Origin: a virus
DNA: 20,890 nucleotides
Reading direction: 5' to 3' (one strand)
Virus record (IMG/VR): IMGVR_UViG_3300049224_000020
Coordinates: 1 to 20,890 of that record
Position 1 is the stretch's first letter. Every line of letters starts with the position of its first letter. Shown in pieces: positions 1 to 17,575 of this stretch. Both the position numbers and the translations under genes were made by a program. The notes beneath the pieces were generated by a model. That model ran no database searches. It was given only the letters and a program-made list of their open reading frames with translations, and had not been told where the DNA came from.

Positions 1-281
1 AAACCAGATAAGGATACATTACCTGAACCTTCAGTGGCTACTGTGCCTAGAGCTAATGTTGCACTAACAGCATCTAAAAGAAAACTTGCATCGCCACTAA
101 AAGCAATCGTTCCAAGATGCGTAGTTAATACTTGACTAGGTAAAACTACATTTGTTGCACCCTGTACTGTAACTGAACCTAAAGATAAGGTAGCAGATAC
201 AGAAGCTAGTGTTACATTAACACCTGCACTTCCTTCACTTGAAAAGGAATCTTCACTAAATGACAGTAAGCCAAATGACAT
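1..281 (-). CDS. Repeat-rich putative virion/tail protein, N-terminal part (truncated by window edge)
   Basis: ATG at 281 follows GAGGAAATAAA, a good ribosome binding site that overlaps the stop of the LamG protein upstream. The 93 visible residues start MSFGLLSFSEDSF and then become a low-complexity Val/Ser/Thr/Gly/Leu stretch. From residue 28 there are about three units of 21-23 residues, two of them opening VSATLSLGSV and VSATLALGTV and the middle one VLTTHLGTIA. This alternating hydrophobic and small-residue pattern suggests a repetitive beta structure such as a fibre shaft. Its place directly after the fibre and LamG genes fits a tail or host-contact role, but that is inference. The C-terminus lies outside the window, so size and function are unknown. 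Alternatives are a capsid-surface fibre or a secreted adhesin. Confidence 0.75.
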   Translation of the reverse strand, partial: MSFGLLSFSEDSFSSEGSAGVNVTLASVSATLSLGSVTVQGATNVVLPSQVLTTHLGTIAFSGDASFLLDAVSATLALGTVATEGSGNVSLSG

Positions 282-293
282 TTTATTTCCTCA

Positions 294-3200
294 TTAGAAT
301 GGAACAAACTTAGTAGCAATTGCATCATTTCCTATGACCAGAGTATAATTATTACTACTTGCATCTGTAATTGCACCAGTAGAATTTTGGCATGTTAAGA
401 GTTGTGTATTAGTTATTGCAGTCAATGCACTAGTTGGTGCTGTAAAACTACTATCTCCAGAGGTATAAACTGCTGAACCTACAACTACTCTAAAATTAGA
501 TATATATCCATTGTGTGCAAAAGTGCTATGATTAGTTTGTTTAACACCAATCGTTACTTTTTGTTGAGTATAATTAGTAGTAGAAGCATGACTTCCATCA
601 TTAGATGCAGCTCCAGATGAAGAAGTAATCATTACACCATTTTGATAACATCTTAATTGCCCACCATTTCTAACTAATGCAACATGATACCACGTGTTTT
701 CTTGCATCAAGGGTGCAGTTCCAGTTCCATCATTAATAAGTGTGTTACCCCCAGTTGCCCACACAAAGAGTTTACCATGATTAACATCGCCACCTCCACC
801 AATATATATGCCTATACCACCACCACTATAGTTTGTGTCGAATGGCATTATAGTTGCAGCCAAACTACCAGTATATACCCAAAATTCTACTGTAAAATTT
901 CCAGTACCAAATTGCAATGATGCGTGTGAAGGAGTTTCTACATAATCTCCAGTTCCATCAAATTTTGTAGATCCACCAGAAGGATTATCAAATGGACTTA
1001 CATAACTAAATGCCGTATTCCCATTTTCAGTAATCGAAAGACTTGAAGCACTCTCATCAGAAGTTGCAAGTTCAATATTTCTTGTATCTGTTGTTGGACT
1101 TCCTTGAGCGACACTAATAGTTTTATTAGTACCACTATTGTCCACTGTAGGATTACCAGTGCCATTTTGAGCCGTTAGCAATACTGTACCACTTACGGCA
1201 GTTAAAGGTGCTGTTGGTCTAGCAAACCCTGCTGCTGATGTATTTAAAGCTGTACCTTTTACAACTCTAAGATTACTTAATAGCAATCCATTTGAAAGAC
1301 CATATCCACCAGAATAACCTCCTCCAATACGAAGAGCATCATTAGATGAAGGGTTATGATCATAACTATTCCCTGCAACAAAGGACTGACCTGTCGTAAT
1401 AATATTACCCCTAGCACTAGAGTTACCAGAAGCGTATGCTTCATAGCAATTACCATCAAGAAACTGGTAGTGATTAAGCCCATGACGTACATATCTTACA
1501 TGATACCATACATTATTTGTAGGTACTCCAAGAAGCCCATAAAAACCTCCACCAGAGAAATCCCAAAAAGTTAACTGTCTATTAGAAGGAAAATATACAT
1601 GAATACTTTCGGTATTATCTGAAGCATTACTAGGCCCGAAGAATAACAACCATTGATTGCTTCCAGTATTCGCTAATAATTTAAACCAAAAATCTATAGT
1701 CCAATCGCCAGTTCCAAATGACATATCAGAATGTGATACTAATAAATTTTCACTGCTTGCATTAAATAAGTATGAACCATTTGTTACAGTAGTAGCATCA
1801 GAATTTGATCCAACCAAAAGTTTCGTGTTCGTTATAGCAGTTAGGGGTTTAGTTGGAGTAGTAATAAAATTAGAATATGGTTTTGTTGTACTGCCTGCAA
1901 GAGAGCCACCTGTAACCATAGTATAATTTTGATCACTATTATCTGATATAGTTGATCCAGAAGTTGTTTGATTTGTAAGCAAATACGTATGGGCAGCTGG
2001 GAATGATGTATTGACATTTGTAGTAGAAGGATACGTTCCACCAGTTTTTGTAAGTTTATCAGAAGGTGGAGTAAAAGCACCACTATAAACAGATGTACCA
2101 ATTACAAGTCGTGTGTCAGACATATAGCCTTTTGTTTGCCAAACAGTATCACCTTGTGACATCATATGAAGTTGTCCAGATCCATTAGGAAAAATTGCTG
2201 TATTAGCAGTGCCACTAGCAGTTTGAACACCATCTATAAAAACTTTTATAGAACCAGAATTATTAGATAAAGCAATGTGATGCCATTGATTTAAATTAAT
2301 TGTTCCACTGCCAGGAGTATCTGCAAACCCACCTACATAATATACATCTAATGTACCACTTGATCTTCTAGCAAGATATCCAAAATTATTACCATTAGGT
2401 TTTCCCTCAAAAAATACATTATAACTACCATTATTAGTCATGTATACCCATGTTTCTAATGTCCAAGTAGTTCCCCAATTCGGTAAAGAAGTAGGAGTTG
2501 ATAACAATCCAGTAGTTGCAACTGCTGAAGAACCAACATTAGGAGTAGTTGGAGTATAAACAGCAGTGCCTTTTACAATTCTTGCATTTGAAATATAACC
2601 ATTCCAACTTCCACCAGTACCAACAACTCCTCCACCAACTGTTACAGGCGAAGAGGGATTATTAAAATTGTTATTATTACTAACAGAAAAATCTTCAATC
2701 CCATTTACATATGATTTTATAGTTCCACTAGATCTTTGCACAGCAACATGATACCATTTATATAAATCTAAAGTTATTGATCCTGTATGACTAGTTAGTG
2801 TAGTTCCACCATGCACAGTATAAAAATCTAATTCAGTACCAACTGTTTCTAAAACAAAAGAGTTATTTGCATTACCACCATTTTGAGGCCATTGAGCTAT
2901 GATACCATTATAACCATTAGCAAAAGAGTTAGAATAAACCCATGCCTCTAATGTAAAATCACCAGTGCCAAAATGCCAATCATCACTGTCTGCTATTGAT
3001 AAGTAATCGCCAGTTCCATCAAAGTAAAGTGAACCTGAAACTGCAAATGCTAAAGCAAAATTTTGTACTGTTGTGGCAGCATTTGTACCATCAGATATTG
3101 AAAATTGAAGTGAAAAACTACCCTGATGGTCAGTATTTGTAGTTGGGGTTACTTTAAAAAATCTGTTAGTTGTTGATGCTCCTGCTGCTAGTGCAGAATA

Positions 3201-3815
3201 TGTACCATTAGATGTAGCACTGCTTGTTACTGTTGCTGTTGTGCCACCACCATTTGTAAGTGAACCAGTAGACACAGTATATGAATTTTGTAAAACTGTT
3301 CCTTCATCTGCATCTGTAGCTACAAGCTCAATAGATGCGGCAGCACCATCTGTAGCCATTACAATATCTGTTCCTGTTGCAGGGCTTACCAGTGAAGGAG
3401 AAGTATTTACTGTTGCAATTTTGTACCACCCAGATCCATTATAAATGTAAAGACCTTTATTTGCAGTAACTAAAGCTTGTGATCCTGCTGCAGGGGAAGA
3501 TACAGCAACCATAGCAGCAATGTTTGCATAGACAGTTGTACCTGATCCACTGCTACTGTCAGACGAAACTTCACTATCTGTTGTTGAAGATCCATCTGTT
3601 GTTTGCAGTTGAAGCTTTCCATCTGAACTACTTCTTTTGAGAATAACTTTATCAGAGCCAGTACCTATGTGAACTTCACTAGCAATTAATTTCTTAGTAT
3701 TATTACTGGTGTCTTGAACTGTTAAATCATTATTACTATCGGTAACAAGTTTTGTGCTACCAATTTGTATAGGGTCTGATCCTGCTCTTTGACTGCGGTC
3801 TAATGCTTTTGACAT
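294..3815 (-). CDS. LamG (concanavalin A-like) repeat protein, candidate receptor-binding tail protein
   Basis: This 1173-residue protein carries four laminin-G/concanavalin A-like lectin domains at about residues 263-423, 437-580, 681-865 and 949-1120. Three open with F(D/N)-type strands such as YFDGTGDYLSI and KFDGTGDYVET. All share the core pattern GTGxFTxExWVY, WYHVAL, VNG and a closing YISNxRVVxGxAVY. Residues 1-90 are Ser/Thr/Asp-rich and may be the virion-attachment part; residues 91-260 look like an Ig- or cadherin-like beta segment. LamG folds bind sugars or proteins, so host-surface binding is a reasonable inference but no ligand can be named. Domain 2 lacks the opening strand and its preceding linker. 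The start has AGGAAAGAATAA before the ATG, and the upstream gene's TAA touches it. A secreted enzyme is unlikely because no catalytic residues are evident. Confidence 0.9.
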   Translation of the reverse strand: MSKALDRSQRAGSDPIQIGSTKLVTDSNNDLTVQDTSNNTKKLIASEVHIGTGSDKVILKRSSSDGKLQLQTTDGSSTTDSEVSSDSSSGSGTTVYANIAAMVAVSSPAAGSQALVTANKGLYIYNGSGWYKIATVNTSPSLVSPATGTDIVMATDGAAASIELVATDADEGTVLQNSYTVSTGSLTNGGGTTATVTSSATSNGTYSALAAGASTTNRFFKVTPTTNTDHQGSFSLQFSISDGTNAATTVQNFALAFAVSGSLYFDGTGDYLSIADSDDWHFGTGDFTLEAWVYSNSFANGYNGIIAQWPQNGGNANNSFVLETVGTELDFYTVHGGTTLTSHTGSITLDLYKWYHVAVQRSSGTIKSYVNGIEDFSVSNNNNFNNPSSPVTVGGGVVGTGGSWNGYISNARIVKGTAVYTPTTPNVGSSAVATTGLLSTPTSLPNWGTTWTLETWVYMTNNGSYNVFFEGKPNGNNFGYLARRSSGTLDVYYVGGFADTPGSGTINLNQWHHIALSNNSGSIKVFIDGVQTASGTANTAIFPNGSGQLHMMSQGDTVWQTKGYMSDTRLVIGTSVYSGAFTPPSDKLTKTGGTYPSTTNVNTSFPAAHTYLLTNQTTSGSTISDNSDQNYTMVTGGSLAGSTTKPYSNFITTPTKPLTAITNTKLLVGSNSDATTVTNGSYLFNASSENLLVSHSDMSFGTGDWTIDFWFKLLANTGSNQWLLFFGPSNASDNTESIHVYFPSNRQLTFWDFSGGGFYGLLGVPTNNVWYHVRYVRHGLNHYQFLDGNCYEAYASGNSSARGNIITTGQSFVAGNSYDHNPSSNDALRIGGGYSGGYGLSNGLLLSNLRVVKGTALNTSAAGFARPTAPLTAVSGTVLLTAQNGTGNPTVDNSGTNKTISVAQGSPTTDTRNIELATSDESASSLSITENGNTAFSYVSPFDNPSGGSTKFDGTGDYVETPSHASLQFGTGNFTVEFWVYTGSLAATIMPFDTNYSGGGIGIYIGGGGDVNHGKLFVWATGGNTLINDGTGTAPLMQENTWYHVALVRNGGQLRCYQNGVMITSSSGAASNDGSHASTTNYTQQKVTIGVKQTNHSTFAHNGYISNFRVVVGSAVYTSGDSSFTAPTSALTAITNTQLLTCQNSTGAITDASSNNYTLVIGNDAIATKFVPF

Positions 3816-4048: not shown

Positions 4049-4420
4049 CTATACTCGTGGCCCAAATCTTTCTCTATTCCATTTTTCATCTTTGCCTGGC
4101 TCATTAGGAAAATCATCATCCTCTAGATTAGGCCAATTTTTATGAGTTGGTAAATCTCTTAGAGCTTGTCTATAAGTTTTCCACTCATCAGAAACACTAC
4201 CTCCAGACTCATTGGCAACCGAAACAACATAATCACTTTTTCCTAATGTTTCATTACGTATTTGCCTCCACACAGTTGCCTTGTCTTTTTCTATTGCTTC
4301 TTTAATTTGTTCTTCTGTAAGTGGCTCAACCCAATCAGGACTGTCCTCATCAATAGTTACTCTTGTCATTGTTCCATCTACTGCAATAACTGTACCTGTC
4401 TGTGTTCTTTTTTCTGTCAT
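4049..4420 (-). CDS. Phage tail assembly chaperone-like protein
   Basis: This 123-residue protein is preceded by AGGAAACTACA. Its centre carries the pattern typical of the small tail/fibre assembly chaperone-like family (Phage_tail_APC type): WRQIRNETL at 51-59, SDY at 62-64, then DEWKTYRQALRDLP at 78-91. Residues 1-40 form a short beta-rich lead with a TRVTIDED segment. The tail from 95 is acidic and Pro-rich. In known phages such proteins are encoded next to fibre genes and help fibres fold or attach, which agrees with its place between a 1036-residue fibre and a LamG adhesin. The motif match is read by eye, so the family is fairly secure but the exact client is inference. Confidence 0.82.
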   Translation of the reverse strand: MTEKRTQTGTVIAVDGTMTRVTIDEDSPDWVEPLTEEQIKEAIEKDKATVWRQIRNETLGKSDYVVSVANESGGSVSDEWKTYRQALRDLPTHKNWPNLEDDDFPNEPGKDEKWNRERFGPRV

Positions 4421-4429
4421 TGTAGTTTC

Positions 4430-7400
4430 CTATATATCCTTTAATCGCATAATCCTAAATTTACCATAGAACCCACTGTTGATGTATTGCAAAGTAGAAA
4501 CTCTAATTTTATTTATAAAAGTAGCATCAGTTGAAGACCCTGATGTTCCATCAACTTGAAGTTTCTGAATCCCAAATTCTCGTCTATAGTTATTAGTAAA
4601 TTCAATTTTAAATATGGGGTTATTCGTACCACCACTACTACCTAGTCTTGCAGGTTGATAATATTCAAAATTACCATAGGAAGCTCCATAACCACTGCCA
4701 GTATCACCCATTCCACTAAGACTATACCAACCTGTTGAGCCAGAACTATTATCAGCATCTCTTTCTGCACTTCCATTATAGGAAGCTTGGCTATTGCCCC
4801 CAGTATAATGCCAACCTGCCCAACCTTGTCCAGTTATGTAATTATTATTATGATCTTTCTGTAAGCCATTAGTATAATTGTTAAACCTAATATCCCAATT
4901 TCTTGAACCACCATTATTTATTTGTACATCCCAAAAATAAACTTTATAATAATAGCCTCTTTCCACAGTAATTTCCCAATATAAATCACTACCATTTCCT
5001 TCATATGTAGTAACGTGTTCCCACCCTGATCCTCCTGCATCTTGCCATGTTGGCCTACTACCCCCATTTGATGTAAAAACTTGACCAGATGTGCCAGAAT
5101 TTCCATCACTTTGTAATGTACCTAGTAGATTTAAATAATTAAGTTTTGAAGTACTAGCAGGATCAACTAAATAAGTACTACTATTAATATCAACAAATTG
5201 AGTTGCATAAATTGAGCTTTGTGAATAGACCTGTCCTGTTCCAGTAATCCTAAATTGTTCTGCACCACCTCCAACTACACGAAATGCATAACTAGCACCA
5301 GTTGCTACACGTATATCTTGTGCATATTCACCTGCTGAAGCTTTATCTATAATAAGACCCCAATCATTATTATTGGTAGCAGTTACATATAAAGTAGCGT
5401 CAGTACCATTGTTTGATGTTCCACCATCTATAGAAACTCCTGCGCCAGTACCAGATACAGTTAAAAAATTATCTACAGTTAAAGCACCATTAAGATAAGT
5501 AGTTCCATTGTTGTAAAAGTCATAGCTTGTGTTTGTTGCTCCAACATACATACCTTGACAATGCACATCTTTGTATCGACCCCCACTAGCAAGTCCTAAA
5601 TCTATCTGTTCATTTCTTAACGCCCCACTAGCAGGATTAAGTGGCACAAGTGCATCAGCACTTTGATAAAATCCTATGCCTACATCTCCCCCACCAATGT
5701 GTATTGAACCTGACTCTAGTCCAATATACCCTACAGTGCTGCCATCGTCAGCAAAACGTATCATTTCACCATCGTTACCAGTAAGATTAACAATTAATTG
5801 GGGGCTAGTTTCTGCTGCAATAGTTAATTCATTACCAGGCCGATATACTAAACCACCACCAGAAGTATTGTTGTAAAGAGAAGTATCAAGCGTTCCCACC
5901 AATAAATTCCCAGAGCCATCTAGCCTCATAGCTTCGTTACTGCTACTATCTCCATATCCTGTAAATACGTGCTGATTAGCAATGTATTCTTGTGTGATGT
6001 AAGCACTGGCATTTCTTGCCATTAAGTATACTTCACCTGAAGCAAAAGATACCTGATGCCTTTCTGTTCCATTAGAAACGTCAAGTTTTGTAGCAGGGGT
6101 TATTCCAATGCCAACATTACCACCATTCGTCACAGTTAATCTATCATTCCAAGCACTTGACGCAAAAGTTTGTAAAATTATAGGTTGGCTTTCTGACCTA
6201 ATAACACTTTCACTGCTATCTTGGGTTAAATAAAAACCACCATTTGATCCTGCATTTATTGTGGTTGTTGCAGTTACAGCACCAGTAATATTTAAAGACT
6301 TGTTCATATTCCAAGATGTATCAGCATGAGTATAATTAAAGGTTGCCCCTGCACCCCCTATGGTAATGCCTGCACCATTAGCCGCGGCTGAATCAGCTGC
6401 ATCTGTAGCAATTGAAAAGTTCAAATCATCAATAGCTACTGTTGTGGAATTGATCGTTGTTGTTGTGCCATCTACCTGAAGATTACCTGCAATCACTACA
6501 GTTCCTGTGTTATCGCCATGTGCTGCAGGGTCTATTGTAAAACTTGAGGGGCCACGTAAGTATCCAGATAAAGTTGCGTTAGTTCCTGAAATCGCTCCTG
6601 TAAAGGTAGCCCCTGCTAATGGGGCATAAGTAGATGATGCAGTAGAGCTTGTGAGATAAGAGCTTAGATCAACTTCAGCCCAAGTCAGACCACCAGTATT
6701 ACCAGACTGTGCTTGTAAAAAATAATTGTTAGTGGGAGTGTTGCTTACTTGAAGGATTGCTTCATTAACAGTATTGAGTGCCATACTTGGTTGAGCAACT
6801 TGAGACAAAAGTGCTAATGACCCAAGCCCAAGATCACTTCTAACTTCACTAGCACTCCTACCTTCCACAGATGTACCATCAATCTTGAGAAAGTCATTAT
6901 CAGCTACACCACTAGTAAACACAGGAACTTTACCACTAGTTATTCCTGTAGTTGCTGTAGTTAAAGGTGTAAAAGTAATAACCTCTACTATGTCATTTAG
7001 AGTAGCACCTGCAGTAAGCGTAACTGTAGTGCCACCTGACAATGCATAGTCAGTTGTTTCTTTTAGAAATATACCATTTAAAAATACGTGAGAAGTAGAA
7101 TTAACAGCTAGTGTCGGGCCACTGCTATCTGCAGCTCCACTAAATGCCGTTTGATTGCTACTAGCTGTTTTTGTCCATCTTTGTTGTATAGTACTAAGAG
7201 GAGTATTATTAACAACCAATTCATTGCTTGCATCTAGATATGCAGCTTTACTTGCAGGCTGTGTTACAAATACTTTTTGATTACCTGTGCAAGATATCTT
7301 AGTTGTATTACCTGCAGATGTTTGAAGCACTGTTGTTCTAGCTAAAGTTGTACCACTAGCAGTATACGTACCTATACCTACTTCAAAGTTATTTCCATCA

Positions 7401-7540
7401 GTAATACAATAATATGTTGTATTAGTATTACCTATGTCGGCAAAGGTACGAAAACCATCAACAGCACCAGTTAGGGTAAGTGTACCCTGACCTGTGGTAT
7501 TTGATGTTTCTTTAATTCTGTCTTTTAAGACTAGAGCCAT
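4430..7540 (-). CDS. Tail fibre-like structural protein
   Basis: This is a 1036-residue protein whose ATG overlaps the upstream stop by one base (TAATG), with AGGA just upstream. Residues 1-112 resemble a fibre N-terminal attachment domain (DRIKETSNTTGQGTLTLTGA, then ARTTVLQTSAG). Residues 125-190 hold a module seen repeatedly in phage fibres, with HVFLNGIFLKETTDYALSGG. Residues 355-415 carry the DGTTTTINSTTVAIDD beta-repeat pattern common in marine phage fibres. The middle is Gly/Ser/Thr/Asn-rich and repetitive. Residues from about 830 to the end are aromatic-rich (WEHVTTYEGNGSDLYWEITV) and look like a distinct globular head. No C-terminal S74 peptidase chaperone signature is visible. It presumably trimerises on the virion and contacts the host; the receptor is unknown. 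Confidence 0.88.
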   Translation of the reverse strand: MALVLKDRIKETSNTTGQGTLTLTGAVDGFRTFADIGNTNTTYYCITDGNNFEVGIGTYTASGTTLARTTVLQTSAGNTTKISCTGNQKVFVTQPASKAAYLDASNELVVNNTPLSTIQQRWTKTASSNQTAFSGAADSSGPTLAVNSTSHVFLNGIFLKETTDYALSGGTTVTLTAGATLNDIVEVITFTPLTTATTGITSGKVPVFTSGVADNDFLKIDGTSVEGRSASEVRSDLGLGSLALLSQVAQPSMALNTVNEAILQVSNTPTNNYFLQAQSGNTGGLTWAEVDLSSYLTSSTASSTYAPLAGATFTGAISGTNATLSGYLRGPSSFTIDPAAHGDNTGTVVIAGNLQVDGTTTTINSTTVAIDDLNFSIATDAADSAAANGAGITIGGAGATFNYTHADTSWNMNKSLNITGAVTATTTINAGSNGGFYLTQDSSESVIRSESQPIILQTFASSAWNDRLTVTNGGNVGIGITPATKLDVSNGTERHQVSFASGEVYLMARNASAYITQEYIANQHVFTGYGDSSSNEAMRLDGSGNLLVGTLDTSLYNNTSGGGLVYRPGNELTIAAETSPQLIVNLTGNDGEMIRFADDGSTVGYIGLESGSIHIGGGDVGIGFYQSADALVPLNPASGALRNEQIDLGLASGGRYKDVHCQGMYVGATNTSYDFYNNGTTYLNGALTVDNFLTVSGTGAGVSIDGGTSNNGTDATLYVTATNNNDWGLIIDKASAGEYAQDIRVATGASYAFRVVGGGAEQFRITGTGQVYSQSSIYATQFVDINSSTYLVDPASTSKLNYLNLLGTLQSDGNSGTSGQVFTSNGGSRPTWQDAGGSGWEHVTTYEGNGSDLYWEITVERGYYYKVYFWDVQINNGGSRNWDIRFNNYTNGLQKDHNNNYITGQGWAGWHYTGGNSQASYNGSAERDADNSSGSTGWYSLSGMGDTGSGYGASYGNFEYYQPARLGSSGGTNNPIFKIEFTNNYRREFGIQKLQVDGTSGSSTDATFINKIRVSTLQYINSGFYGKFRIMRLKDI

Positions 7541-13488: not shown

Positions 13489-13693
13489 TTACTTCTTCCC
13501 TAAGTGAGTGTAGCTTTCTAAGTATAGCTAATGATCCTTGTGATCTTTTCCACAGATCTTGATTATCTGTCTGTTCCATTATTCTAGTATGATTTTGTAT
13601 ATGATATTCTAAATACTCAACAAACGCATCCCATAGCTTTGGATTATTGCATAGGGGTTTGAGGTGGTTGAGGAGTTCCTTGTGGTTGTGCAT
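13469..13693 (-). CDS. Small helical protein of unknown function between portal and virion protein
   Basis: The 74-residue form starts at the ATG at 13693, which overlaps the last 50 bases of the portal gene; AAGGATTTACAGGTA lies upstream. A TTG at 13729 would add 12 residues but has no better ribosome binding site. The product is helical and charged (HLKPLCNNPKLWDAFVEYL, then SQGSLAILRKLHSLREEVN). The pairing of NPKLWDAFVEYL with a downstream RxQGxxxxLRxL helix resembles short proteins often found right after phage portals, and it may be a portal- or head-assembly cofactor. No annotated family is claimed. Base composition and codon use match the neighbours. Confidence 0.7.
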   Translation of the reverse strand: MHNHKELLNHLKPLCNNPKLWDAFVEYLEYHIQNHTRIMEQTDNQDLWKRSQGSLAILRKLHSLREEVNVKEIS

Positions 13694-15737
13694 TACCTGT
13701 AAATCCTTGTTCTTGTGGGCCGGGAGCAACTCCTGTACCTATAGTACCCCCACCTGCTCCTGTTGGATCATTTGGGTTTGCTCCTGCAGGAGGCTGTCCT
13801 TGTGGTTGAGGTTGTTGCTGTTGAAAACTCTTCATTAGTTCAGCAGCTAACATTGCTTCTGCTTTATCATTTGTAACCTTCTCAGGATCAAGATCAAGTG
13901 ACTTAGCAATTTCACGTATGATATAATCCATCTTAGCAAAGGGTGCAAGTGCAGGATTAGAGGATACTTGCAAAAATTGCATAAGCCTTTGACTACGTAC
14001 TTCGTTAGCCATTAGGCTTTCTGTACCTCTTGCCTTTACTTCTAGATCTCCTTTTATCTCAGGATCAAAGTCAAACTGCATATTAAATCTAAACATACCT
14101 TCACCTAATGGTCTAAGTATATAGTCATCTATATTTTTAATAACAGTCTTAACCCCACCTGACGCAGCATTCATAAGCATAGAGATACCACTAGCTGTCC
14201 TACCTACACCTGATACACCTGTCTGTCCATGTGCAAAGGAAGGAAAGCCTGTAGACTCATCTGCTAAGACTCTAGCCTTATCAAAGAGTTGTAAGTTTTC
14301 GTTTGATACATTGGGAAATTTAGTTCCAAAGATAGCCTGACCGGGAGCGCCGCCCTGTCTACGAAAGACTTTACCGGGATATACACTAAGGTCTTGGCCG
14401 GGAACTAAGTTAGTTTCATCTACCTCAATAAGTAGATTGCCTGATAGTACAGCATTATCTACAGCCATACGCATAAAACCATTCATTAAAGTCTGTGTAT
14501 CATCCATGTTTTCAGCAATACCTATACCAAAAAAGCTATAAGGATTAAGCTCATAGGGTGCAGACATGTATGGTATCTTCATAGGTTTAAAAGGATTAAC
14601 AACAAGTCTTAGTAATCTATCATTACATATCCACGCATTAACCTGTACTTCATCGTAGGCTTTTAGTTCTTTAGGTATATCTAAACCATGTTCTTCTAAC
14701 ATTTCTACATCTAGCATACCCCAGTATTCAAATACTTCAAATCTATTAATCTCTTCAGAATTAGTGTAATCAGATAGATCATCTTCCCAAGATTGTTTTT
14801 GGTAGTTCTCTCCCATAGTAACACAATCATCAATAGCTTGAGATATAAAGTAGGGTCTTTTCTTTAGTCCACGCAGTTGAGATCTAGACATTTTATGTCG
14901 CTCAAATACGTATTGTGCTTCTTCCATATTGTTTGCGTCTGGATCTGGAAAGAAGTTCCATATAGATACATGGGATACTAAAGGTACAGTTTTAAATAAT
15001 GGCTCATACTCACCTTCATCAGACCAATTAGGATATTCTTTATCTAAAGCAAATGGGCCTTTAATAATACCTGTTCCAAATAATGCCATTTCAAATGCGG
15101 TATTTCGTAAATGTGTATTGGCATTTGATTCTTGTAACTGATCATGTATTTTCTTTTCCATCTTCTTAGCTGCAATCATTGCAGGATGAAAGGTTATAGC
15201 TGTGGGAGTTTTACCTGCCCCTTGCTCTAGCCCTTCTACATCTTTTAACTTTTCACTCAGGGGGCCTAAGTTATCCATTAGAGTTTGTTCTGTTGCACCT
15301 GCAGGTATATCTTTACCATCTCCTGCAAATCCATAAGGACTCTCGTTAGGATCACGTTTAACTTGTTCAGGCTTTTGAGGATCAAGACTAACACTTTCTA
15401 TAACTCCTTCAGGTAATTCTGTAGGCTCTATAGTAATAGGAAACTTATTCGCAGCAAATAAAACATCAGCTATCTGTCCATAGGCTGCTAGTGTCTTGGT
15501 CTTAGTAACTTTAATAAATATTCTTGACTTTTCAGCCTCAGTAAATTGTACATCGGAATCATACAAACCTCTATAATTTTTATAAGACTTTAACCATCGT
15601 ATCTCATCTTGTTCACGATTAGTTTCTGCCTTTTTATACTTATCCATTATATGATAGATTACTTTGATATTACTATCTTCAGACTCTTCTAGAGCCATTG
15701 ATGTATCATCAACTAAAACTTCGTCATTATCTTCCAT
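13644..15737 (-). CDS. Portal protein
   Basis: This 697-residue protein starts at the ATG at 15737, one base after the large terminase stop, with GGG upstream; a TTG at 15749 would add four residues without support. The N-terminus is acidic, then a helical segment (ETNREQDEIRWLKSYKNYRG, about 34-53) begins the portal body. Characteristic features are PYSFFGIGIAENMDDTQTLM followed by NGFMRMAVDNAV, the region where portals show 'GxGxxxxxxDxQxxxNxxxR', and a GKVFRRQGG segment. The last 60 residues are Gln/Pro/Gly-rich and disordered. Its length is similar to P22-type portals. Twelve copies would form the DNA channel at the capsid vertex and dock the terminase. The position after terL and before scaffold and capsid agrees. 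Confidence 0.9.
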   Translation of the reverse strand: MEDNDEVLVDDTSMALEESEDSNIKVIYHIMDKYKKAETNREQDEIRWLKSYKNYRGLYDSDVQFTEAEKSRIFIKVTKTKTLAAYGQIADVLFAANKFPITIEPTELPEGVIESVSLDPQKPEQVKRDPNESPYGFAGDGKDIPAGATEQTLMDNLGPLSEKLKDVEGLEQGAGKTPTAITFHPAMIAAKKMEKKIHDQLQESNANTHLRNTAFEMALFGTGIIKGPFALDKEYPNWSDEGEYEPLFKTVPLVSHVSIWNFFPDPDANNMEEAQYVFERHKMSRSQLRGLKKRPYFISQAIDDCVTMGENYQKQSWEDDLSDYTNSEEINRFEVFEYWGMLDVEMLEEHGLDIPKELKAYDEVQVNAWICNDRLLRLVVNPFKPMKIPYMSAPYELNPYSFFGIGIAENMDDTQTLMNGFMRMAVDNAVLSGNLLIEVDETNLVPGQDLSVYPGKVFRRQGGAPGQAIFGTKFPNVSNENLQLFDKARVLADESTGFPSFAHGQTGVSGVGRTASGISMLMNAASGGVKTVIKNIDDYILRPLGEGMFRFNMQFDFDPEIKGDLEVKARGTESLMANEVRSQRLMQFLQVSSNPALAPFAKMDYIIREIAKSLDLDPEKVTNDKAEAMLAAELMKSFQQQQPQPQGQPPAGANPNDPTGAGGGTIGTGVAPGPQEQGFTGNAQPQGTPQPPQTPMQ

Positions 15738-15738
15738 A

Positions 15739-17295
15739 TTAATACCCAAATGTTTGATCTGCTATCTGATGCCCATGATTTTGTTTATTAGGTTCATAGT
15801 CAAAAATACTAAATCGTGGTCTTGACATTATACCATATCTTAATGCATCATACAAGTGATCTTCTGATTGTGTGTCTATATCTTCTGAATTTTTTTTATC
15901 TAAAGGAATTGAGGGAAGTTGAGAAACTATATTTGTACAGTTATTAAAAAATACTAATCTTGGTTCTTCTGTAAAGTCATCAACTTGTAATCGTCTATGT
16001 ATTTCATTCTTACCTGCTACTCTACTTCCCTTACTCCTATCTGATGGCCGCCATCTACATCCTCTTTGAATCATCTGTTCTGCGAGTGATGGGCCAGTAT
16101 CACCACGCCTATGCCAAAGAGAACTATCAAGCACACCGTAATTAATAGTTCCGTCATGTTGTTCTACCTCCAATATCATATCGGCTAAGTCAGTAGCTAA
16201 TACTTTGGAAACATACAACTCCCTATATACAACAAGCTGCTCGTCAGGAGAAATAGCAAACCATACAACTGCAGATTTACTTCCGTATCCATAGTCACAT
16301 GCCCGAAACTTTGTCCAAGCTGTCGGTATATCAAAAGGTTCGATGACATGTATATCACGATTAAACTCTGTAAACGCAGCACCTTCTTTGATATCCCAAT
16401 CTCCATCAAGAAGTTGTCTTCTTTGTTGTTCAGGCAAGGACAAGAGCATAGACTCGTAATCACCTTGCTCTGCAAGATAAGGATTATCAAATAGTCTCGC
16501 AGGAATAAACCTGCGTTTAAATAGTGGTTGACCTTCTTTTGAATGTCCTGTGGGGTAACTAAGTGTTTCATTTGTTTCAATATCTGTTGCCCAAAATGAA
16601 TTACCTGCAGGTGCAGGATCAATAAACATTTTCTTTACCCAAGCATGCCCTCTTCCACCGGGGTTTGTTGTTGCTCTCATAAAGATAGGTAAGTTAGAAC
16701 TTGCAGTACGTAAACGTGATCTTAAATAGTTCCAAGCAAAAGGTGTAGGCCACTGTGTAAGTTCGTCAAAGCCTATCCATGTAAATGCTAAACCCTGATA
16801 ACGTAATACATCTTCTTCTCTATCTAAATAAGAAAACCACAATCTACCACCTGAAGGTGTAACCCATTGCATTTTTCTCTCTGACCATTTTATATTTGGT
16901 ATAACTTTAGGGTATAGTTCTTGTGACTTCCACACAAGTTCTCTAAGTTCTTCTGTTGTATGTCGTAAAAGTAGTCCACTAAATTGTGGGTGTTGTAAAT
17001 ACCTTAGTGGATCAGCTAACATTGCATAACTCTTGCCGCCACCTGCACTTCCACCATAAAGAACTTCTCGTTCACCACTCGCTAAAAAATTAGTTTGAGG
17101 CCCTTCGTTAGGCTTAAACACTACATTGTGTTTCTCTTGAACCTTTACCTCATCTCTTTTAATTACTGGCGTGGTCTGTACTTTCGCTTGCACCTGTTCT
17201 TTTGGCTTCGATCTCTTTCGCTTTGGTGATCGCCTTTTCTGCATACTCTGCCCACTTGCGTAGGCTTCTAGCTTTGTTTTTACGCTGTCGTTCAT
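15739..17295 (-). CDS. terL: Terminase large subunit (ATPase/nuclease)
   Basis: This 518-residue protein packages DNA using an N-terminal ATPase and a C-terminal RNase H-like nuclease. Walker A is GGSAGGGKS at 81-89. Walker B is WIGFDE at 173-178, with catalytic E178. The coupling motif is ATTNPGG at 208-214. The nuclease shows acidic residues D334 (RACDYGYG), D390 (GVLDSSLW) and D483 (HLYDALRYG). The conserved core begins only near residue 58. Residues 1-57 form a strongly basic extension (QKRRSPKRKRSKPKEQ) encoded within the end of the upstream gene, where the overlap is 137 bases. No in-frame ATG downstream of codon 18 would keep Walker A, so the overlapping start is preferred, though its ribosome binding site is weak. 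Confidence 0.95.
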   Translation of the reverse strand: MNDSVKTKLEAYASGQSMQKRRSPKRKRSKPKEQVQAKVQTTPVIKRDEVKVQEKHNVVFKPNEGPQTNFLASGEREVLYGGSAGGGKSYAMLADPLRYLQHPQFSGLLLRHTTEELRELVWKSQELYPKVIPNIKWSERKMQWVTPSGGRLWFSYLDREEDVLRYQGLAFTWIGFDELTQWPTPFAWNYLRSRLRTASSNLPIFMRATTNPGGRGHAWVKKMFIDPAPAGNSFWATDIETNETLSYPTGHSKEGQPLFKRRFIPARLFDNPYLAEQGDYESMLLSLPEQQRRQLLDGDWDIKEGAAFTEFNRDIHVIEPFDIPTAWTKFRACDYGYGSKSAVVWFAISPDEQLVVYRELYVSKVLATDLADMILEVEQHDGTINYGVLDSSLWHRRGDTGPSLAEQMIQRGCRWRPSDRSKGSRVAGKNEIHRRLQVDDFTEEPRLVFFNNCTNIVSQLPSIPLDKKNSEDIDTQSEDHLYDALRYGIMSRPRFSIFDYEPNKQNHGHQIADQTFGY

Positions 17296-17575
17296 TCTCT
17301 AATCTTTTTCTCAAACCTACGTGAGAAATGTACCTATCAGTTTCTTTACTAAGCCAGTTTGATACTTCTCTATATGAATACTGGTCTACATACTTACGTG
17401 CCATTTCTAACTTATTTAGTTGATCCTCTATAGGAACAAGTAACTCAAGATCGGTTTCATCTTGTTTATATCCAAAGGGTATAGTCCTAGCTATTCGTGG
17501 TATTGGTTGCCACTCATTATCTTCTTTAATATCGGTAGGCTGTGGTAACTTCCATTTGCCTAATGATCGGTTCAT
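17159..17575 (-). CDS. Helix-turn-helix-like protein preceding terL
   Basis: This 138-residue protein starts at an ATG that overlaps the preceding stop as ATGA. Residues 64-91 (QYSYREVSNWLSKETDRYIS, then HVGLRKRLENE) read like a helix-turn-helix of the resolvase-tail type, in which an 'S-x-R-E-V-x-x-W-L' helix is followed by a recognition helix. A basic helix (RKNKARSLRKWAEYAEKA) follows. The N-terminal half includes RIARTIPFGYKQDETDLELLVPIEDQL. It shares its last 45 codons with terL in another frame. Its place between two packaging genes suggests DNA binding in terminase assembly or pac/cos recognition, or late-gene regulation. No family is claimed and the role is inferred. Confidence 0.78.
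   Translation of the reverse strand: MNRSLGKWKLPQPTDIKEDNEWQPIPRIARTIPFGYKQDETDLELLVPIEDQLNKLEMARKYVDQYSYREVSNWLSKETDRYISHVGLRKRLENERQRKNKARSLRKWAEYAEKAITKAKEIEAKRTGASESTDHASN

Follow-up and report, generated by a model that had tools for sequence, protein, structure and literature searches.

A phage adhesin gene in which Laminin G domains are probably nested within one another

Results

The adhesin gene and its surroundings

The window analysed here, by which we mean the whole stretch of DNA, a virus record of 20,890 bases, carries at 294..3815 on the minus strand an open reading frame (ORF) of 1173 aa (coordinates including the stop codon) that encodes a putative LamG adhesin. A profile search placed four Laminin_G_3 domains in this ORF, at 38.3–76.8 bits against a family cut-off of 27.6, in agreement with the first-pass annotation, which had described a tandem LamG adhesin with four domains. 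The whole protein was found with 100% identity on three more IMG/VR contigs (L001–L003), so the short junction between two of its cores, described below, is not an assembly error of a single contig. A truncated ORF with repeated short motifs (3–281, minus strand) adjoins the gene.

A single gene separates the adhesin gene from that of a tail fibre assembly chaperone (4049..4420, minus strand; PF16778, phrog_4912), and the adhesin region matches tail, baseplate and virion structural families of PHROG. The 1036-aa protein encoded at 4430–7540 had no Pfam match and no PHROG match. A phage virion adhesin is the best explanation of the protein, and because of its gene context and because Laminin G3 domains occur in phage virion proteins, as passages of PMC7824862 describe, a role in host binding appears plausible. 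The portal/terminase region (13686–17556) has 72.5% DNA identity over 3.9 kb to Roseobacter phage CRP-345, on the basis of which a host among the Rhodobacteraceae may be guessed. The CRP-345 record has endolysin and spanin genes nearby.

Cores and tails of the protein

The protein begins with an N-terminal domain (residues 1–256; 3048..3815, minus strand, as are all features of the protein) that is common to relatives of both strand orders described below. The usual LamG tail has two parts, an L half (FTPPTxPLTAITNTxLL) and a D half (DxSxxNxT..PF), which together with the core, C, were scored as tokens. The core of domain 1 (C1, residues 257–420; 2556..3047), placed by profile, tokens and an AlphaFold2 (AF2) model, ends on VKGTAVYT at about residue 420, and the next core match begins 16 residues later by HMM, whereas most linkers elsewhere are 60–90 aa in length. 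The first-pass annotation was thus right that the linker after domain 1, TPTTPNVGSSAVATTG, is short (residues 421–436; 2508..2555). This C1–C2 junction contains the start of the opening strand of domain 2, a strand that the same annotation had held to be lacking; AF2 predicts it at residues 430–439, and its motif, GSSAVATTGLLSTP, is divergent.

Domain 2 with its own tail occupies residues 421–650 (1866..2555; tokens and AF2 model), its core lying at 428–577, L2 at ~610–614 and D2 at ~625–648. Two tails follow core 2 in series, YLLTNQTT..DNSDQNYT at ~610–648 and then ITTPTKPLTAITNTKLLVGSNSDATTVTN at ~651–679, the second of which has no DNSxxNYT half. The latter is the strand segment L1, the candidate second piece of domain 1 (residues 651–679; 1779..1865; alignment, tokens and AF2). 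After it comes domain 3 with its own tail (residues 680–908; 1092..1778; tokens and AF2 model), and in the linker that follows domain 3 one D half, DNSGTNKT at 892, is succeeded by another, DESASSLSITENGNTAFSYVSPF at ~921–943, which lies within the half-tail D1, the candidate third piece of domain 1 (residues 909–945; 981..1091; alignment, tokens and AF2). Core 4 is followed by one L and one D, and domain 4 (residues 946–1173; 297..980) is by profile and tokens a plain core-L-D unit, for which model confidence is partly low.

The motifs from which the first-pass annotation had argued are all in place, with FNASSENL at 684 and FDGTGDYV at 952 opening domains 3 and 4, and the linker motif LTAxxxTxLL at 658, 871 and 1131, after domains 2, 3 and 4. 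Its inventory of linkers was correct on the short junction and overlooked both the second tail after domain 2 and the extra D after domain 3. Scored on the identical L040 protein with HMMs whose training was restricted to plain arrays of other ORFs, the token string reads C, CLDL, CLDD, CLD, which is four C, four L and four D. For each of domains 2 and 3, a full set of C, L and D tokens is present and the corresponding strands are predicted.

Pairing of displaced tail pieces across a family of adhesins

We collected 292 loci with 238 non-redundant ORFs containing a LamG core, and defined a family as those ORFs that match the window's N-terminal domain, have both ends inside their contig and extend at least 35 aa past the last core. 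The family comprises 27 complete ORFs, 24 of which are multi-core. A search with one doublet in genome contigs gave 14 loci, none of which entered the family set. Linkers shorter than 38 aa made up 25 of 70 in the family versus 5 of 506 in the other collected LamG ORFs. These short junctions of the family lie at the first (15), second (2), third (1) and fourth (7) positions of the array, and the counts that follow are not phylogenetically independent, since related proteins share ancestry and 15 of the 25 are first junctions.

Within family ORFs, the linker following a short junction contained at least two L tokens in every case (25/25), and none of the 45 other linkers did. An L left open in this way was followed by an extra D in the next linker in 20 of 25 cases, versus 0/45 otherwise, at a threshold of 3 bits; stricter thresholds gave 17/24 (4 bits) and 16/24 (5 and 6 bits), versus 0/45 or 0/46. 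Fully balanced token strings were obtained for 15 of the 24 multi-core proteins at 6 bits, whereas 5000 within-protein permutations at the same threshold averaged 3.8 and never exceeded 9; at other thresholds the number was 13 (4, 5 and 8 bits) or 14 (7 bits). The nine strings that are unbalanced at 6 bits read, by eye, as cases of missed or spurious tokens. The family test was made with retrained HMMs; an initial set of HMMs had yielded balanced strings at 4 bits for just 8 of 139 ORFs, since the majority of these have the L-D-C order and variant tails fall short of the thresholds.

Both L1 and D1 motifs are present in an alignment of 15 sequences, D1 being unaligned in the row of L010 6856–10989. 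In that protein three levels of nesting can be made out by eye, domain 4 in domain 3 in domain 1, with HMM tokens that are partly spurious. Short junctions outside the family set occur in L128 (two junctions), L270, L172 and L053 16–3309. By reading, L053 16–3309 fits the family rule and L172 a mirror image of it, L128 breaks the rule, and L270 is unclear, perhaps owing to a mis-called core. The L128 ORF (2573–13780) encodes 3736 aa and includes, besides 15 LamG cores, several additional L-D hairpins that depart from the rule.

Strand orders and a relative free of domain 2

The same N-terminal domain is found on two strand orders, one with L-D before each core, in ORFs that end on a core, and one of core-L-D, in ORFs that end on a tail. 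The single-domain relatives L061 5552–6973 and L064 6998–8266 have the order C-L-D, with the D half at the C-terminus. A further protein, L061 679–2805, has the string C C L D L D, which allows a nested parse only, if pairings do not cross. In L172 6659–8392, a protein with an unrelated N-terminus, two L-D heads precede the first core and a spacing of 17 aa separates two cores, which reads as a mirror nesting for the L-D-C order. Three or four LamG genes with differing nesting patterns stand side by side at L006:1841–12766, L053:16–13545 and L061:679–6973, and in Synechococcus phage S-H9-1 (L189:4516–9132) a 494-aa block with no core match lies between two LamG cores.

A natural comparison is provided by L043, with four cores, and L050, with three, whose two flanks share 91.6% identity (855 nt) and 94.5% identity (3058 nt). 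In L050 one different core replaces core 1 and domain 2, and the two sequences become similar again where L1 begins, so that a single core leads straight into L1 and domain 2 is absent. The chain at this join reads VKGTAVYTGNFSVPTSPFSAGVTNTKLL, a motif that in the window is split between VKGTAVYT and TTPTKPLTAITNTKLL. Since core 1 of L050 is another module, the pair represents the exchange of a core plus insert for a plain core, rather than a pure excision, with L1 and D1 left intact.

Modules exchanged among relatives

Different parts of the window protein have different closest relatives. Core 1 shares 91% identity with L008, 74% with L005 and 41% with L004, whereas for domain 3 the values are 89% with L004, 56% with L008 and 67% with domain 5 of L005; those for domain 2 are 77% (L004) and 66% (L008). 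These discordant identities of core 1 and domain 3 indicate that whole modules are exchanged as a mosaic among relatives, and the domain shuffling proposed by the first-pass annotation is supported at the level of sequence comparison. Its more specific suggestion of recombination between the gene's own repeats fared less well. With units compared at the DNA level, the LamG cores of the gene are 58–62% identical, which makes the repeats old and recent recombination between them unlikely. Variation among relatives, to which it had also looked, was seen in the number of domains; the junction is common to 14 of 15 aligned proteins (the window's included).

The module of domain 2, of the WGTTWT type, is also present in L004, L008, L042 and L006 4749–8735 and carries the divergent opening strand there too, so that the divergence of this strand in domain 2 is a property of the module type. 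In several relatives, other modules with FDG-type openings are found at the same kind of short junction.

Predicted structure

AF2 was applied to residues 257–1173 with the 15-sequence alignment and gave a model with a mean pLDDT of 74.1 and a moderate pTM of 0.62, in which some stretches of domains 3 and 4 score under pLDDT 50. Without an alignment, residues 253–762 gave a pLDDT of 30.7. The model places a strand at 664–668 in L1, in a block with a mean pLDDT of 90, and strands at 928–931 and 935–937 in D1. Compared with the PDB by VIA-align, it matches a jelly-roll fold of LamG/pentraxin type. Single pentraxin or LamG chains cover approximately model residues 1–688 with 187–210 aligned residues and Z of 16–21, the best matches having an rmsd of 2.6–3.0 and Z up to 21.1. 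These include 8a7d_C (202 residues, rmsd 2.8, Z 21.1, model 4..687), 4dqa (194 residues, Z 21.1, model 3..687), chain 1..217 of the Limulus pentraxin 3flp_A (192 residues, Z 19.4, model 1..688) and 1sac_A (187 residues, Z 17.4, model 3..686). Most top matches end at model residues 677–692, in D1, 5 of 50 end at 894–913, and matches to CBM40 such as 6er3_B end at 397–400, at L1.

The output of VIA-align consists of the first and last aligned residue only; since core 1 has 164 model residues and the matches are longer, the remaining aligned residues must come from beyond core 1. L1 and D1 probably fill the rest of these single-chain matches, and the case that they fold onto core 1 is strong but indirect, depending as it does on the predicted model.

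Other comparisons bear on the fold to differing degrees. A phmmer search of PDB sequences with the window protein returned nothing up to 0.01, while a profile of 28 plain L-D-C units matched 27 PDB sequences up to 0.001 (best 7e-17), some of them beginning at profile position 4–5 and hence including L and D. A BFVD structure search returned mainly LamG-type phage proteins with low TM-scores and was uninformative on nesting. Direct coupling analysis of 411 plain units gave plausible strand contacts, and plain tails of the family preferred their own preceding core over random cores in 0.68–0.72 of comparisons (19 tails). When the displaced L1/D1 of 12 proteins were compared with the cores of the same protein, core 1 came first in 2 or 3 of 12, depending on how many pairs were used, and so was not singled out; D1 had been misplaced in about half of the rows.

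Discussion

Taken together, we consider it highly probable that the window adhesin is built of nested LamG domains. One LamG domain would consist, in order, of a core C, a strand segment L and a terminal half-tail D. Domain 1 would be discontinuous, comprising approximately residues 257–420, 651–679 and 909–945, with a complete domain 2 inserted between core 1 and L1 and a complete domain 3 inserted between L1 and D1. The window protein would then parse as C1 {C2 L2 D2} L1 {C3 L3 D3} D1, followed by C4 L4 D4, in which domain 4 is a plain unit after the nested domain 1. For the family as a whole, the rule would be that a domain is made of C, any number of domains, L, any number of domains, and D. 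Such a unit could sit in a loop of another, leaving the fold unbroken, because both of its ends presumably lie close together, and recombination at these loop sites would add, remove or swap whole modules. The domains may bind a ligand, and their exchange may influence the choice of host.

A broader reading, which we advance tentatively and rate a little below an even chance, is that this architecture is recursive in marine phages. Each LamG module would have two permissive loops open to further LamG modules, with no limit on depth; adhesins would then grow and recombine in the manner of branching trees, exchanges that keep the C-L-D order would stay foldable, and a mirror form would exist in the order seen in L172.

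Among the alternatives to nesting, it is very unlikely that the domains are plain beads on a string with variable spacers, in which the extra L and D pieces are free hairpins belonging to no domain. The tail motifs are indeed short and weakly scored, and linker lengths vary. The strict compensation of L and D tokens speaks against free hairpins, however, as do the confidently predicted L1 strand and the single-domain templates that match core 1 through D1.

We regard as extremely unlikely the proposal that the short junction is a deletion scar, left when recombination between repeats deleted domain 1's tail together with the strand that opens domain 2; this is the fusion of domains 1 and 2 by linker loss that the first-pass annotation had put forward. 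A short junction, a divergent opening motif and modules that do recombine between relatives are what such a scar would lead one to expect. The supposedly lost tail was nevertheless found later in the protein after 25 of 25 short junctions, and in the predicted structure the displaced pieces probably complete domain 1. In addition, the junction is kept in nearly all aligned proteins with no sequence loss relative to relatives, an opening strand is predicted for domain 2, several relatives have FDG openings at their short junctions, and the repeats are too far diverged, at the DNA identity given above, to favour such an event.

Comparably improbable is another nested pairing, in which the protein's last tail would close core 1, leaving L1-D1 to core 4 as in the classical L-D-C order. 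This pairing is also balanced for the window string, and other phage arrays have the L-D-C order. It is at odds with the C-L-D order of the single-domain relatives, with L061 679–2805, which permits only the parse preferred here, and with the top VIA-align matches, most of which end in D1, though the five that end at 894–913 do not. Least probable of all is strand exchange between chains, with L1 and D1 completing core 1 of a neighbouring oligomer subunit: virion adhesins are often oligomers and sequence balance alone cannot distinguish chains, but the monomer model appears to form domain 1 within one chain and single-domain members close on themselves.

If nesting within single chains is true, it would explain how module swaps spare the fold, and the C-L-D rule would predict which arrangements should occur. 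It would also mean that linear domain annotation misassigns pieces, as in the window protein, where Pfam shows four tandem domains. Searches of open-access PMC papers turned up no earlier description of nested LamG domains. Domain insertion as such is already known; self-insertion of one family at fixed sites, with exchange of modules, would be an unusual way of building an adhesin.

The closest known fold is that of Laminin_G_3 (PF13385) and pentraxin-like domains, such as the LamG domain of PAPP-A, the Limulus SAP-like pentraxin and PTX3, to which the window protein is linked by its four profile matches and by the single solved chains that cover the predicted domain 1 at Z 16–21. Those domains are continuous, whereas domain 1 of the window would be in three pieces, interrupted by two members of its own family. 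Tandem LamG arrays in structural proteins of cyanophages and other phages (Synechococcus phages, phage DSL-LC04) share the domains and linker motifs, but most of the collected tandem arrays are plain repeats with L-D before each core, and short junctions account for the 5 of 506 linkers noted above. The nearest parallel in principle is domain insertion generally, for example the insert domains of RNA polymerase (PMC11515920, PMC7824862), where a complete domain likewise lies in a loop of another. The window adhesin would differ from such cases in that host and guest are of the same family, that insertion takes place at two sites and repeatedly, and that the modules are swapped between relatives.
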